Source: Flavobacteriales bacterium (lineage in GTDB: Bacteria; Bacteroidota; Bacteroidia; Flavobacteriales_D; UBA2798). From it: 32,847 nt of DNA. The translations under genes and the position numbers were made by a program. The notes under the pieces were generated by a model. The model worked only from the letters and a program-made list of their open reading frames with translations. It searched no databases and was not told where the DNA came from. Below, piece after piece: positions 8,532 to 13,364 of the stretch. The stretch spans positions 1-32,847 of the forward strand of contig JAIBBF010000030.1 in assembly GCA_019694795.1 (NCBI GenBank), written 5' to 3'. Position 1 is the stretch's first letter; each line of letters begins with the position of its first letter.

Positions 8532-8564
8532 TTTGGATATTAATTCGACAAAGGGATATATTTG
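8532..8564 (+). promoter_or_regulatory. Bacteroidota-type promoter of the leader-peptide locus
   Basis: TTTG at 8532-8535 and TATATTTG at 8557-8564 are separated by 21 bp, matching the known -33 TTTG / -7 TAnnTTTG consensus. The -7 box ends only 4 nt before the ATG at 8569, so the transcript should begin at or just before that codon. Confidence 0.8.
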
Positions 8565-8568
8565 CGCC

Positions 8569-8637
8569 ATGAAGTGGAACAACTTTCATATGATTTATAT
8601 GCCGGCAGTGATGTGTCATTGTCGTGCTATAGCATAA
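8569..8637 (+). CDS. Putative Met/Cys/His-rich leader peptide 1 (22 aa)
   Basis: Mini-ORF that opens at the predicted transcript start and ends with TAA. The 22-residue product has 4 Met, 2 Cys and 2 His, with the core MPAVMCHC at residues 11-18. It lacks a signal peptide or domain. The stop is followed after 46 nt by an intrinsic terminator, and GGGAG just after the stop (8639-8643) can pair with CTCCC of the terminator's left arm. Promoter, short ORF rich in particular residues and terminator is the layout of an attenuator leader, here suggesting a response to methionine or cysteine supply. A small metal-binding peptide is the alternative. The core resembles that of the next mini-ORF. Confidence 0.6.
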   Translation: MKWNNFHMIYMPAVMCHCRAIA

Positions 8638-8683
8638 TGGGAGTTATTCAGTTTATTTAGAAAAAAACAACAAACATAAATTG

Positions 8684-8715
8684 AAGTCCTCCCCAACCGG
8701 GAGGACTTTTTTTTT
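8684..8715 (+). terminator. Intrinsic terminator 1 (attenuator candidate)
   Basis: Perfect 10-bp stem: AAGTCCTCCC (8684-8693) with GGGAGGACTT (8699-8708), 5-nt loop CAACC, then further T residues to 8715. It lies between the two leader-like mini-ORFs and has no A-run on its left, so it acts on + transcripts. Confidence 0.92.
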
Positions 8716-8723
8716 GATTAATA

Positions 8724-8852
8724 ATGATGAAAAATTACAGTGGATATCCAATGAATGTACGATGCAATATGCATCCAGTAATGCCATGCACTTGTATTAT
8801 GTTCCCCATGTGGCATTGTACCCTTCATAACCGGAAAATCCCCTTAAGATAG
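8724..8852 (+). CDS. Putative Met/Cys/His-rich leader peptide 2 (42 aa)
   Basis: Begins with ATGATG 8 nt after terminator 1 and ends with TAG at 8850-8852. The 42-residue product has 7 Met, 4 Cys and 3 His, packed between residues 10 and 35, with the core MHPVMPCTC at 16-24, similar to MPAVMCHC of peptide 1. No separate -7 box is visible, so it probably depends on read-through of terminator 1. The last codons (CGG AAA ATC CCC) carry a sequence complementary to the left arm of terminator 2, placed so that a ribosome reaching the stop would mask it and one stalled at the last Met/Cys codons (Met29, Cys32) would leave it free. This fits leader-peptide attenuation by sulfur amino acid supply. Confidence 0.6.
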   Translation: MMKNYSGYPMNVRCNMHPVMPCTCIMFPMWHCTLHNRKIPLR

Positions 8853-8884
8853 TTTTAGCAACAAGCAGAATCGAGGGCTTTTCC
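8833..8884 (+). promoter_or_regulatory. Competing antiterminator helix for terminator 2
   Basis: GGAAAATCCC at 8833-8842, inside the end of leader ORF 2, pairs with GGGCTTTTCC at 8875-8884 with a single T/C mismatch. The second segment is the complete left arm of terminator 2, so the two helices exclude each other. Cys32 of the leader (8817-8819) lies 13 nt before the first segment, and the stop codon lies 8-10 nt after it. Confidence 0.6.
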
Positions 8885-8909
8885 AAAACAGGAGAAGCCC
8901 TTTTTTTTT
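8875..8909 (+). terminator. Intrinsic terminator 2 (attenuator candidate)
   Basis: GGGCTTTTCC (8875-8884) pairs with GGAGAAGCCC (8891-8900), one T-G wobble, loop AAAACA, followed by nine T residues. It stands after leader ORF 2 and 20 nt before the 46-codon ORF. No matching A-run on the left, so it serves the + strand. Confidence 0.92.
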
Positions 8910-8929: not shown

Positions 8930-9070
8930 ATGCAGCTTACAGAAACACAACGTCAATTGTTCCTTGCCATTTCAGTTCGACTTGCCAATGCCAACCAGGA
9001 ATTAAAAGTGGAGAAAATACAGAAGAAAAGTGGTGCAGAAAAAAAGAAAAAGTTACCGCTTAGCGTGTAA
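8930..9070 (+). CDS. Small basic protein of unknown function (46 aa)
   Basis: The ORF begins after an A-rich stretch downstream of terminator 2 and ends with TAA at 9068-9070, overlapping the 3' end of smpB (minus strand) by 11 bp. The product starts [15 protein letters not shown], looks helical, and has eight Lys in its second half (QKK, EKKKK). It contains one Met and no Cys. I recognise no family. It is the only gene-like sequence that read-through of the two upstream terminators could express, so it is the candidate target of the attenuators. It may also be a chance ORF. Confidence 0.4.
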
Positions 9071-9518
9071 TCTTTTTTGCACGGTCCATCTCACGTTTGG
9101 CGTCCTTCAGTTTAAGGTCGTCGCGTTTATCGTATAATTTCTTTCCGGTTGCCAATGCAATTTTCAATTTGGCCAATCCTTTTTCATTGATAAAAAGTTC
9201 AAGCGGAATAAGCGTTGTCCCTTTCACTTTCAGCTCCCGGATAATTTTGGCAAGCTCGTTTCGGTTGAGCAATAATTTGCGGTCGCGATTTGGAACATGG
9301 TTATTATAACTTCCGGGTTCATATTCGGCAATATGCATTCCTTTAATGAACAATTCGCCATTATGAATAAAACAATAGCCTTCGTTGATGCTGGCTTTAC
9401 TTTCGCGAATGGATTTTATTTCTGTACCGGTTAACACCATTCCGCATACATACACATCATTCAAATGATATTCGAAGGAAGCTTTTTTATTGCGGATGCT
9501 GATGTTGGTTTTAGACAT
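9060..9518 (-). CDS. smpB: SsrA-binding protein SmpB
   Basis: 152 residues, usual length for SmpB. The OB-fold body shows the conserved [30 protein letters not shown] and [14 protein letters not shown] segments and ends in the basic tail [14 protein letters not shown]. With tmRNA it rescues ribosomes stalled on truncated mRNAs and tags the nascent chain; the tmRNA gene is not in this window. The start at 9518 is fixed by a -7 box ending 4 nt upstream. The 3' end overlaps a small convergent ORF by 11 bp, so read-through transcripts could be antisense to smpB. Confidence 0.97.
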
Positions 9519-9552: not shown

Positions 9553-10380
9553 TTAACCTAATGCCACATCGAGAATCATCATCACCAGGAATCCTCCAAT
9601 AAATCCAAGCGTAGCCACATCTGTATATTTATCGCGCTGGGTTTCGGGAATTACTTCTTCCACCACTACATAAATCATAGCTCCAGCAGCAAATGCCAAT
9701 GCAAAAGGTAAAATTGGTTCCATATAAATAACGGCAATTGCTCCTACTACACCTGCAATGGGTTCAACGATGGCGGAAAGCTGACCATAAAAAAAACTTT
9801 TCCTTCTGCTGACGCCTTGTCGACGCAACGGCATCGCCACCGCAATTCCTTCCGGGAAATTTTGAATTCCGATACCAATTGCCAAAGCAATAGCAGCAGA
9901 AAAAGCAGCTGGATCCATTCCATTTGCTGCAGCGCCAAACAGCACACCCACAGCTAATCCTTCCGGAATATTATGCAATGTAATGGCCAACACCAACAAG
10001 GTAGTGCGATGCCATTGCGTTTTCATTCCTTCCGATTCTTCTTCGTTGTAATTAATGTGCAAGTGAGGCAGCCATTTATCGAGACCAAACAAAAACAAAG
10101 CCCCCAATAAAAACCCAACCGCCGCCGGCATCCATGGTGCAGAAGGATATAAATTTTCCGACCATTCGATACTCGGATTTAAGAGCGACCAAAAACTTGC
10201 AGCCACCATTACACCTCCGGTGAAACCTAACATGGCATCCAATAATCCGCGATGCATGGTTTTAAAAAAGAAAACCAGTGCAGCACCTGCGGCAGTAACC
10301 AGCCAGGTAAAAGTGGTTGCAATTAATGCCGACCATACCGGTCCAATACTGATAAAATATGCTTCCAATCCGTCTTTCAT
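9553..10380 (-). CDS. ZIP family divalent metal transporter (GufA/ZupT-like)
   Basis: 275 residues with about eight hydrophobic segments. The two metal-site helices read [11 protein letters not shown] and [14 protein letters not shown], the ZIP signature in TM4 and TM5. The loop before TM4 is short and acidic (NYNEEESEG) rather than His-rich. ZIP proteins carry Zn, Mn or Fe into the cytoplasm; the metal is not decided by the sequence. The gene starts 4 nt after the stop of the DtxR/MntR-type regulator, so both are one operon, and manganese or iron uptake under that regulator is the likeliest role. Confidence 0.92.
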
Positions 10381-10384
10381 TACT

Positions 10385-11050
10385 TTATTTTTTTCTGACC
10401 AACATATTTCTGGTTACGACATTCGACAGGGTCAATTGTTTTTTATCCTTCAACTCAATACGAACCGACCGGTCGAATTCAAACATTTCTAATAATTTAA
10501 ATTGTGTACCCAGCACCAGATTGTTCTGGTCGAGATAAATGAGAAAAGCAGAGCTCGTATCTGAAACTCCCGTTACAATTAAGCGATCTCCAACCTGGGC
10601 ATCTGATAATAAAAAGGATTCCGAACGTGAAGCAAATTTTCCGTTTTTATCGGGAATGGGATCCCCATGTGGATCGAAGCGGGGATGATTTAAAAATGCA
10701 TCAAGCGAATCGATGAGTTTTATACTTTGAATGTGCTCCAGCTGTTCCGCAATTTCATGCACTTCGTCCCAACCAAATTTTAATTTCTCCACCAAAAAAA
10801 CTTCCCACAAACGATGTTTACGAATGGTATCGACCGCAATTTTTTTCCCCTCCTTCGTTAAGCCTACCCCCTGGTACTTTTCGTAGTTGACCAGTTTTTT
10901 ATCGGACAACTTTTTAATCATGTCCGTAACCGACGAAGCCTTGGTATTTAATTTCTCGGCAATTGAATTGGTATTCACTCCCAAACCCTTTCCATCCCAC
11001 AAGCCATAAATCGCCTTCAGGTAATTTTCTTCTGTAAAGCTCAATTTCAT
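10385..11050 (-). CDS. mntR: DtxR/MntR family metal-dependent transcriptional regulator
   Basis: 221 residues. Residues 1-65 are the winged helix-turn-helix (FTEENYLKAIYGL, NTNSIAEKLNTKASSVTDMI, GVGLTKEGK). Residues 70-145 are the dimerisation and metal-binding domain with HRLWEVFLVEKL, WDEVHEIAEQLEHI and NHPRFDPHGDPIP. About 150-220 form an SH3/FeoA-like domain. The family represses metal importers when bound to Mn(II) or Fe(II). It is co-transcribed with the ZIP gene and divergent from a TonB-dependent receptor, and a palindrome in the shared upstream region is a plausible site. The -7 box ends 4 nt before the ATG. The symbol is used for the family; iron (IdeR/DtxR-like) sensing is possible. 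Confidence 0.9.
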   Translation of the reverse strand: MKLSFTEENYLKAIYGLWDGKGLGVNTNSIAEKLNTKASSVTDMIKKLSDKKLVNYEKYQGVGLTKEGKKIAVDTIRKHRLWEVFLVEKLKFGWDEVHEIAEQLEHIQSIKLIDSLDAFLNHPRFDPHGDPIPDKNGKFASRSESFLLSDAQVGDRLIVTGVSDTSSAFLIYLDQNNLVLGTQFKLLEMFEFDRSVRIELKDKKQLTLSNVVTRNMLVRKK

Positions 11051-11054
11051 GAAC

Positions 11055-11062
11055 CAAAGATA
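11055..11062 (-). promoter_or_regulatory. -7 box of the mntR-ZIP operon, leaderless type
   Basis: TATCTTTG on the minus strand ends 4 nt before the regulator ATG. A TTTG at 11081-11078 lies only 15 bp upstream, shorter than the usual 17-23. The operator palindrome at 11089-11104 sits just upstream, near -36 to -51. Confidence 0.6.
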
Positions 11063-11088
11063 AATATTTTATTATATCAAAATAAATT

Positions 11089-11104
11089 TTTAGACTTGTC
11101 TAAA
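11089..11104. promoter_or_regulatory. Palindromic operator candidate for the DtxR/MntR-type regulator
   Basis: TTTAGACTTGTCTAAA: perfect 7-bp arms around a TT centre. It lies in the 79-bp divergent region between the metal regulator and the TonB-dependent receptor, overlapping the likely -7 region of the receptor promoter. Size and TTTAG..CTAAA arms agree with known DtxR/MntR-family sites, which makes repression of both sides by metal-bound regulator likely. Confidence 0.7.
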
Positions 11105-11108
11105 TTTT
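11101..11108 (+). promoter_or_regulatory. Possible -7 box of the TonB-dependent receptor gene
   Basis: TAAATTTT differs from TAnnTTTG at the last base and ends 21 nt before the ATG at 11130. Its first four bases overlap the operator palindrome, which would let a bound repressor block it. Confidence 0.35.
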
Positions 11109-11119
11109 ATATGTCATTT

Positions 11120-11139
11120 ATCTAAAACAATGTTTAGAT
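11120..11139. promoter_or_regulatory. Second inverted repeat with related half-sites across the receptor start codon
   Basis: ATCTAAA (11120-11126) and TTTAGAT (11133-11139) are perfect inverted arms with a 6-bp spacer that contains the ATG. The half-sites match those of the upstream palindrome (GTCTAAA/TTTAGAC) except at the outermost base, but face the other way. It may be an auxiliary binding site or chance in AT-rich DNA. Confidence 0.35.
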
Positions 11140-13364
11140 TACTATTAATAATCAAGCTATTACTCCTTTCGATCACAACAGGATGGACGAGAAATATCGA
11201 AATTTCAATTCTGGAGGAAGGCAGCCGGCAAGCGATTCCCTATGCCAATGTGTTGATTGTAAACCATGGTAAAGGAAGTATCAGCAATGCGAATGGGTTG
11301 GTAAAAATGGAAGTTCCATCGGATTCTTTCGTACTCCGCATTTCGGCTCTTGGTTATTCAACCAAAGAAATCACCTATGAAAAAGGGAATGAAAATATTC
11401 GTGATTCGGTTTTTCTCTCCATCGAATTTTCGGAACTGGACGAAGTGGTCATCAGTGGTACACTGGAAGAAAGAACCATTATGAAATCTCCTATACCGAT
11501 AGAAGTGTACCATATTGGTTTTTTACGTAAAAATCCATCGCCTTCATTGTTTGAATCGCTACAAAACATCAATGGTGTTCGTCCACAAATCAACTGCTCG
11601 GTCTGCAACACCGGCGATATCCACATTAACGGAATGGAAGGTCCCTACACTATGATCTTGATCGACGGTATGCCAATGGTTTCCGGATTGGGAAGTATCT
11701 ACGGATTGAGCGGTATTCCTTCGGCACTGATTCAACGCATAGAAATTGTAAAGGGTCCAGCCTCCACCTTATATGGATCGGAAGCGGTGGGTGGATTAAT
11801 TAATGTAATTACTCAAAGTCCCTTACAAGCCCCGCGATTGGTAATTGAAAGTTACGCCAGTTCATGGTTGGAAAAAAACCTTGATGCAGGATTAAGTTTT
11901 AAAGCAGGAAAGCAGAATTCCTTATTGGGAATTAATTATTTCCATTATGGAAATCCGGTTGACAATAACGGAGATGGTTTTACGGATTTAACTTTGCAAC
12001 ACCGCATTTCAGTTTTTAATAAATGGAATTTTGCCAGAAAAAATTCGAAGGAATTTTCACTGGCTGCCCGTTATGTTTATGAAGACCGATGGGGTGGTCA
12101 AATGAACTGGAGCAGTGATTTTAGAGGTGGCGACAGTATTTATGGCGAATCGATTTACACGGGCAGGTTTGAATTTTTTGGTAAATACGATATTCCATTG
12201 AGAAAAATGGAATCGGCCATTCAATTTTCATTTTCCGATCATCGCCAGAATTCTGCCTATGGAAATAATTTGTTCAATGCTTCGCAGGACATTTCCTTTC
12301 TGCAATACCGCATCATTGGGAATAAGGGTCCACACCAATTCACAAGCGGTGCTGCATTGCGAACCACCTGGTACAACGACAATACATTTTTAACTCAATC
12401 TGAAACCGGTGCGGATAGTCTTCACCTGGTGAACTTACCGGGTATTTTTTTACAGGATGAAATTAAAATCAATGCATCAAACCGGGTGTTAGTGGGAAGC
12501 AGAATTGATCATCACCCGCAGCACGGGTGGATTTATTCGCCGCGTTTAAATTACCAATGGGGAAAGGATGAAAAACAAACCTTAAGGGCCGGAATTGGAA
12601 ATGGCTTTAGGGTGGTTAATTTATTTACGGAAGAACATGCGGCCATGACGGGATCGAGGAGTATTATTATTCCCGAAAAATTACTGCCGGAAAAATCATG
12701 GAATGCACAAGTGAACTACCGGCGCAATTTTTTTCTGACGAACTGGAACGGAAGTATGGAGAGCACTGTTTTTTACACCTTGTTCTCTAATAAAATTATG
12801 CCTGATTATTTTAGTGTTCCCGATGCCATTGTATTCTCCAATTTAAAAGGCACTGCCGTTTCGAGAGGTGTAGGGATAAATAGTGACTGGAATTTTAAAA
12901 ACCGTTTAAAAATCAGTCTCGGGGCAACTTTTATGGATGTATTTCGTATAGAGGACGGCGAAAAAAAGCAGCAGGTGCTAACAGAACACTTTTCAGGCGT
13001 ATTCAGTATTAGTTATTCCTTTTTAAAATGGGGAATTAATCTCGATTATTCCGGATCGATATATGGCCCGATGGACCTTCCGCTTCAGGAGCATGATTTC
13101 CGCGCTCCACAATCGCCCTGGTACAGTATTCAGAATATTAAAATCAGCAAGACCATCAAAGGGAAATGGTCGGTATTCGCCGGTGTAAAAAACCTGTTGA
13201 ATTTTGTACCTCCCGCCTACTCGATTATGCGTCCGTTCGACCCTTTTGACCAACAAGTTTCGGATCCTGTGCAAAATCCATTTGGATATCGTTTTGATAC
13301 TAGCTATGTTTATTCCTCCTTTCAAGGCATAAGAACCTATTTTGGCATGAGGTATCAGTTATGA
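11130..13364 (+). CDS. TonB-dependent receptor, probably for metal chelate uptake
   Basis: 744 residues. Signal peptide about 1-20, then a carboxypeptidase-regulatory-like domain at about 22-105 (GSRQAIPYANVLI, GYSTKEITY), a plug at about 115-235 (TMILIDGMPMVSGLGSIYGL, IEIVKGPASTLYGSEAVGG, INVITQSP) and a 22-stranded-type barrel to the C-terminus. The plug carries a CxxC pair, Cys156-Ser-Val-Cys159. These receptors import ferric or other metal chelates, haem or vitamin B12 across the outer membrane with TonB-ExbBD energy. The shared control region with the DtxR/MntR-type regulator and ZIP transporter suggests a metal ligand. The next gene, a thioredoxin-like protein, overlaps by 4 bp. Confidence 0.93.
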   Translation: MFRLLLIIKLLLLSITTGWTRNIEISILEEGSRQAIPYANVLIVNHGKGSISNANGLVKMEVPSDSFVLRISALGYSTKEITYEKGNENIRDSVFLSIEFSELDEVVISGTLEERTIMKSPIPIEVYHIGFLRKNPSPSLFESLQNINGVRPQINCSVCNTGDIHINGMEGPYTMILIDGMPMVSGLGSIYGLSGIPSALIQRIEIVKGPASTLYGSEAVGGLINVITQSPLQAPRLVIESYASSWLEKNLDAGLSFKAGKQNSLLGINYFHYGNPVDNNGDGFTDLTLQHRISVFNKWNFARKNSKEFSLAARYVYEDRWGGQMNWSSDFRGGDSIYGESIYTGRFEFFGKYDIPLRKMESAIQFSFSDHRQNSAYGNNLFNASQDISFLQYRIIGNKGPHQFTSGAALRTTWYNDNTFLTQSETGADSLHLVNLPGIFLQDEIKINASNRVLVGSRIDHHPQHGWIYSPRLNYQWGKDEKQTLRAGIGNGFRVVNLFTEEHAAMTGSRSIIIPEKLLPEKSWNAQVNYRRNFFLTNWNGSMESTVFYTLFSNKIMPDYFSVPDAIVFSNLKGTAVSRGVGINSDWNFKNRLKISLGATFMDVFRIEDGEKKQQVLTEHFSGVFSISYSFLKWGINLDYSGSIYGPMDLPLQEHDFRAPQSPWYSIQNIKISKTIKGKWSVFAGVKNLLNFVPPAYSIMRPFDPFDQQVSDPVQNPFGYRFDTSYVYSSFQGIRTYFGMRYQL

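Follow-up and report, generated by a model that had tools for sequence, protein, structure and literature searches.

Positions 8532-8909 of the analyzed DNA very probably represent two ribosome-mediated attenuators in series that once served a sulfite-reductase operon (ORF3, the sulfite reductase gene sir, cobA and siroheme synthase), of which only ORF3 is left. The DNA, referred to as the window, comprises 32,847 nt of a Flavobacteriales bacterium (GCA_019694795.1, contig JAIBBF010000030.1, positions 1-32,847, forward strand). An earlier note on the same DNA had proposed two serial attenuators sensing the supply of methionine and cysteine. Comparison supports this proposal: G001, a genome of the same genus, carries a tandem array directly 5' of sulfite reductase, cobA and siroheme synthase, and leaders of this type are associated with sulfite reductase throughout the Bacteroidia.

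The array runs on the + strand from a promoter through a 22-codon ORF1, terminator 1 and a 42-codon ORF2 to terminator 2. Re-reading of the sequence placed all of these elements, and the Met, Cys and His counts of the two ORFs, as the earlier note had given them. The promoter (8532-8564), of the Bacteroidota sigma-A type as judged from sequence, consists of TTTG (8532-8535), a 21-nt spacer and TATATTTG (8557-8564). The last element fits TAnnTTTG, the -7 box of flavobacterial sigma-A promoters, which PMC9723704 places at -12 to -5; on that basis the predicted +1 is 8569, the A of the ORF1 ATG, and the ORF1 mRNA is predicted to be leaderless. ORF1 (8569-8637, stop codon at 8635-8637) encodes MKWNNFHMIYMPAVMCHCRAIA, 22 residues with 4 Met, 2 Cys and 2 His, and would supply the control codons of module 1. 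Its counterpart in module 2, ORF2 (8724-8852), encodes MMKNYSGYPMNVRCNMHPVMPCTCIMFPMWHCTLHNRKIPLR, 42 residues with 7 Met, 4 Cys and 3 His. Terminator 1 occupies 8683-8709 (8683-8715 with its T run) and terminator 2 occupies 8873-8902 (8873-8909 with its T run), at 45 and 20 nt from the respective stop codons. Downstream lie ORF3 (46 aa, 8930-9070, +) and smpB (9060-9518, -), which is convergent with the array and whose 3' end ORF3 overlaps. When 433 kb of the window genome were scanned strictly for promoter-to-terminator units, the matches were this module, one tRNA gene and one structurally ordinary stretch.

Folding showed that module 1 starts at its first base with an 88-nt hairpin over ORF1 (8569-8656, regions 1:2, dG -29.8), followed by a 26-nt linker and the terminator. 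The hairpin folds far better on the + strand (z -4.65 vs -2.8). Module 2 has the same layout and is more weakly folded, with a hairpin over ORF2 at 8739-8842 (z -2.8). In 433 kb of the genome there are 348 intergenic ORFs that start with ATG and have 18-60 codons; ORF1 has the highest Met+Cys+His fraction of them all, and ORF2 comes next. The near-palindromic nature of the hairpin makes the antisense ORFs at these positions rich in His and Met as well, and composition within one genome is therefore weak evidence by itself. The core supposedly shared by the two peptides (MPAVMCHC and MHPVMPCTC) scored like composition-matched shuffles (p 0.48), and no significant DNA similarity between the modules (p 0.65) backs the suggested duplication. 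The initial reading, based on the fold and the antisense composition, was of two non-coding hairpin RNAs with terminators, the Met/Cys/His richness being a by-product of the palindrome in which ATG pairs with CAT. The very strong, strand-specific fold of module 1, the Met/His-rich antisense ORFs and the likeness of the two peptides in composition only are all consistent with it. This reading was dropped after the G001 comparison and the survey of sulfite-reductase loci.

Peptide searches in relatives gave no homologue of either peptide. A DNA search for the array in 60 relatives returned just short AT-rich and terminator matches, and a covariance model built from one sequence found only terminators. 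Being so short and divergent, the peptides were out of reach of such searches, and it was ORF3 that provided the lead. The region adjoining smpB in G001 lacks the array. An ORF3 homologue (E 5e-7, 53%; L208 1501-1641) is located on the same contig as smpB, and directly 5' of it lie a TAGATTTG promoter, MKNTNLFTIMMPAMMHCCWYRIA, a terminator, MKTMKQIMMYCFCCCPMRNMMWHHAHVHRKVLCPDRMRC and a further terminator. The array is thus conserved within the genus. In the G001 copy the ATG falls one base past the predicted start, the distances from stop codon to terminator are 45 and 23 nt vs 45 and 20 in the window, and the module 1 leader is strongly folded too (z -4.2). ORF1 aligns with its G001 counterpart, ORF1' (p 0.001); the alignment of ORF2 is not significant (p 0.22).

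ORF3 is followed in G001 by sulfite reductase (704 aa), cobA and siroheme synthase, beyond which lies smpB in convergent orientation. Gene names in G001 were assigned from sequence, that of sulfite reductase also by its NIR_SIR domain. ORF3 is the first gene of this operon in G001 and its sole remaining gene in the window genome. The first 20 codons of ORF3 differ between the two genomes with dS 0.68 and dN 0.11 (uncorrected) and have been under purifying selection in this pair. The N-terminus reads MQLTE(T/S)QRQLFLAIS(V/L)RL; the small conserved protein was found in this genus only in the searches made.

The observation that no sulfur-metabolism gene follows the array holds for the window, but in G001 the array precedes a sulfite-reductase operon. 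The window genome, which is 99.9% complete, contains no candidate for the G001 sulfite reductase and no NIR_SIR domain. No sulfur gene stands behind the array because sulfite reductase is absent from the genome, and the array would accordingly be a remnant left after loss of the operon. As no contig break separates the array, ORF3 and smpB, the simplest account is that sir, cobA and siroheme synthase were lost from the window lineage by a deletion in the interval from ORF3 to smpB. That G001 gained the operon instead is a possible alternative; it would need an array and an ORF3 that existed beforehand without a target. Other sulfur assimilation genes, cysC-cysD-cysN (L329 5765-8548) and a cysH-like gene (L330 6526-7179), named from sequence and PAPS_reduct matches, are retained in the window genome, in surroundings that match those in G001.

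Upstream sequences of sulfite reductase were surveyed at 41 Flavobacteriales loci, G001 included, and 60 loci of other Bacteroidia, using a strict filter for Met/Cys-rich leader ORFs that end shortly before a terminator. At least one such leader with its terminator was present at 48 of the 101 loci (24/41 in Flavobacteriales and 24/60 in other Bacteroidia), while 53 had none by this filter. Modules numbered 60 in total, including the two of the window. Applied to the opposite strand, the filter accepted one out of 29 terminators at the Flavobacteriales loci and none out of 40 at the others (1/69), and in the window genome itself, sampled as stretches totaling 400 kb, it found no other Met/Cys leader with a terminator (0/96 terminators). 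The Cys+Met fraction of the leaders is 0.285 in frame vs 0.02-0.12 in the other five frames, an enrichment that is partly built in since the filter chose Met/Cys content and terminator nearness, so that a fair comparison is with the opposite strands and with the window genome itself. Both Cys codons occur in the family leaders. The Met/Cys clusters do not differ among G608, G674 and G567 apart from one synonymous TGT/TGC swap, while other codons vary.

These results bear on the two readings in which ORF1 and ORF2 are not control-codon leaders. Richness in Met and Cys confined to one frame 5' of sulfite reductase, retention of the clusters while other codons change, and the alignment of ORF1 with its G001 counterpart all argue against non-coding hairpin RNAs, which are now improbable. 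Metal-sensing or metal-binding peptides were suggested by the composition, Met, Cys and His being copper and zinc ligands, and by a ZIP transporter and a DtxR-type regulator nearby (9553-11050). Nevertheless, the family leaders are poor in His (0.023) and rich in Cys (0.146) and Met (0.140), they precede sulfite reductase, and the genes of the transporter and the regulator lie on the opposite strand; a role in metal handling is very unlikely. The metal gene group as a whole covers 9553-13364, with the ZIP transporter and the DtxR-type regulator on the - strand and a divergent TonB-dependent receptor with a carboxypeptidase-like domain on the + strand.

Attenuation by ribosomes calls for a further structure that competes with the terminator. 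When the 5' half of the module 1 hairpin was left out, to mimic a ribosome sitting on the Met/Cys codons, its 3' half paired with the linker and the 5' arm of the terminator (z -3.6). The resulting antiterminator (regions 2:3, 8639-8693), in which 8639-8654 pairs with about 8673-8693, excludes in folding both the 88-nt hairpin and terminator 1 (regions 3:4). The energy gained by pairing the terminator 5' arm upstream was compared with dinucleotide shuffles. Over the last 70 nt upstream, module 1 gave p 0.005 and module 2, with a possible antiterminator at 8833-8885 (8833-8846 with 8872-8884) that is weak here, p 0.28. When the complete hairpin was kept in the calculation, the terminator arm paired no better than in shuffles, which is expected if 1:2 competes and is not independent support. 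The distance from the last Cys codon to region 2 is 16 nt in module 1 and 13 nt in module 2, a spacing that resembles the E. coli trp leader. Across 58 non-redundant modules the median p was 0.04, with 30 below 0.05 and a Fisher combined value of 1.4e-24, which overstates independence because some modules are mutually related; the safer reading is the contrast with 69 terminators of these loci that lie outside the modules (median p 0.51, Fisher 0.09; rank-sum 2.5e-8). Searches for a SAM or other sulfur riboswitch or a T-box gave no Rfam match at gathering score in the window, just weak and mostly terminator-driven ones. For 6S RNA (6S-Flavo, RF01685), no match exceeded the cut-off in 20 relatives, and the array was not among the matches.

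According to the attenuator model, RNA polymerase would start at 8569 and translation of ORF1 would begin immediately at its leaderless AUG. A shortage of Met- or Cys-tRNA would make the ribosome stall on the Met/Cys cluster; region 2 (8639-8654), left free, would then capture the 5' arm of terminator 1, and the polymerase would read on. With a good supply, the ribosome would reach the stop codon at 8635-8637 and cover region 2, allowing terminator 1 to form. Were ORF1 left untranslated, the long 1:2 hairpin would hold region 2 and termination would result as well. ORF2 and terminator 2 would then repeat the test, and an AND-type behavior is expected in which both terminators have to be passed.

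Tandem arrays were found in 11 genomes besides the window, ten scored by script (G001, G012, G164, G608, G674, G567, G475, G448, G420 and G432) and one, G300, by eye. Neither the window nor the ten script-scored arrays have a TAnnTTTG box between terminator 1 and ORF2. Module 2 thus lacks a recognizable promoter of its own, and the polymerase must apparently pass terminator 1 to reach terminator 2. Six arrays, the window included (G000, G001, G608, G674, G567 and G420), have similar stop-to-terminator spacings, 41-47 nt for module 1 and 19-23 nt for module 2. Other arrays are spaced differently, for example by 22 and 31 nt in G012. Where a box was found, the first ATG is mostly 0-14 nt past the predicted start.

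Whether the window copy still works is a separate matter from what it is. That the array, once functional, has no target and is now decaying is compatible with its identity as an attenuator, and this has a considerable chance of being true, if somewhat short of even. The absence of sir from the genome favors decay, as do the divergence of ORF2, its lack of the CC runs typical of the family and the weak antiterminator of module 2; the poor alignment of ORF2 with G001 and the missing CC runs in particular suggest that the window copy may be decaying. On the other hand, the copy retains an intact promoter as well as an intact ORF and terminator in each module, the module 1 antiterminator ranks with the better ones in the survey, and ORF3 has been under purifying selection in the pair with G001, so that the copy may still be active. 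It is rather unlikely, though conceivable, that the double attenuator has been retained and now gates some other output by Met/Cys supply, such as ORF3, a readthrough RNA antisense to the ribosome-rescue gene smpB, or trans-acting leader RNAs. The window copy would offer a natural example of a regulator that has survived the loss of its operon.

The assignment as serial attenuators agrees with the features by which ribosome-mediated attenuation is recognized. Short leader ORFs rich in control codons of the pathway are present (ORF1, ORF2 and the 60 modules, with controls), intrinsic terminators follow them shortly (45 and 20 nt), and an antiterminator exclusive with the terminator is predicted (p 0.005 for module 1, about 1e-24 for the family). 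Genes making the sensed amino acid stand under the array in G001 and not in the window genome. Because the target is gone here and present in G001, the array is classed by descent and mechanism rather than by its present target. By the sequence features tested, it falls within ribosome-mediated attenuation, of which the tandem form appears to be a new variant. No report of Met or Cys leader peptides in Bacteroidota, of Met/Cys leaders on their sulfite-reductase operons or of the tandem form was found in the open-access literature searched.

The array resembles the trp, his and leu attenuators in its leader ORFs with control codons, competing 1:2, 2:3 and 3:4 hairpins and intrinsic terminators. 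It differs from them in having two attenuators in series, mixed Met and Cys codons and a start codon located at the RNA 5' end or close to it and, in the window, in standing without its operon. Mycobacterial polycysteine ORFs are leaderless. The array shares with them a short, leaderless ORF with Cys codons 5' of sulfur assimilation genes; the mycobacterial cys operons have single leader peptides with Cys runs, no intrinsic terminator was found there (PMC1262725), and they belong to the Actinobacteria. The uORFC-8-2 motif 5' of cysS in Rhodobacterales combines a Cys-codon leader ORF with an intrinsic terminator and has been proposed to act by ribosome-mediated attenuation (PMC8632094), but it is a single module with Cys codons only, a cysS target and a different phylum. 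In Salmonella mgtCBR, two short ORFs likewise act on two attenuators in one leader, mgtM and mgtP answering different signals, ATP and proline (PMC3641672), whereas both leaders of the array carry Met and Cys codons. Leader-peptide attenuation 5' of amino-acid operons in F. psychrophilum is mentioned in general terms in PMC9723704. The array offers a test of why two attenuators with the same kind of control codons would be placed in series, be it for a tighter off state, a steeper response or separate readings of Met and Cys.

Two gene arrangements were noted at the surveyed loci. In three genomes, G012, G616 and G552, the leader region is separated from sulfite reductase by a co-directional tRNA-Cys(gca) gene (L241 291-364, L266 186-257 and L283 378-450, all on the - strand); a gene placed there would put the sensed tRNA under the same control. 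In the Flavobacteriales genus g31, a gene for an Rrf2-like regulator, recognized by eye from sequence, is found directly 5' of a single Met/Cys leader (L246 5687-6142, L236 5960-6415 and L223 1796-2251).
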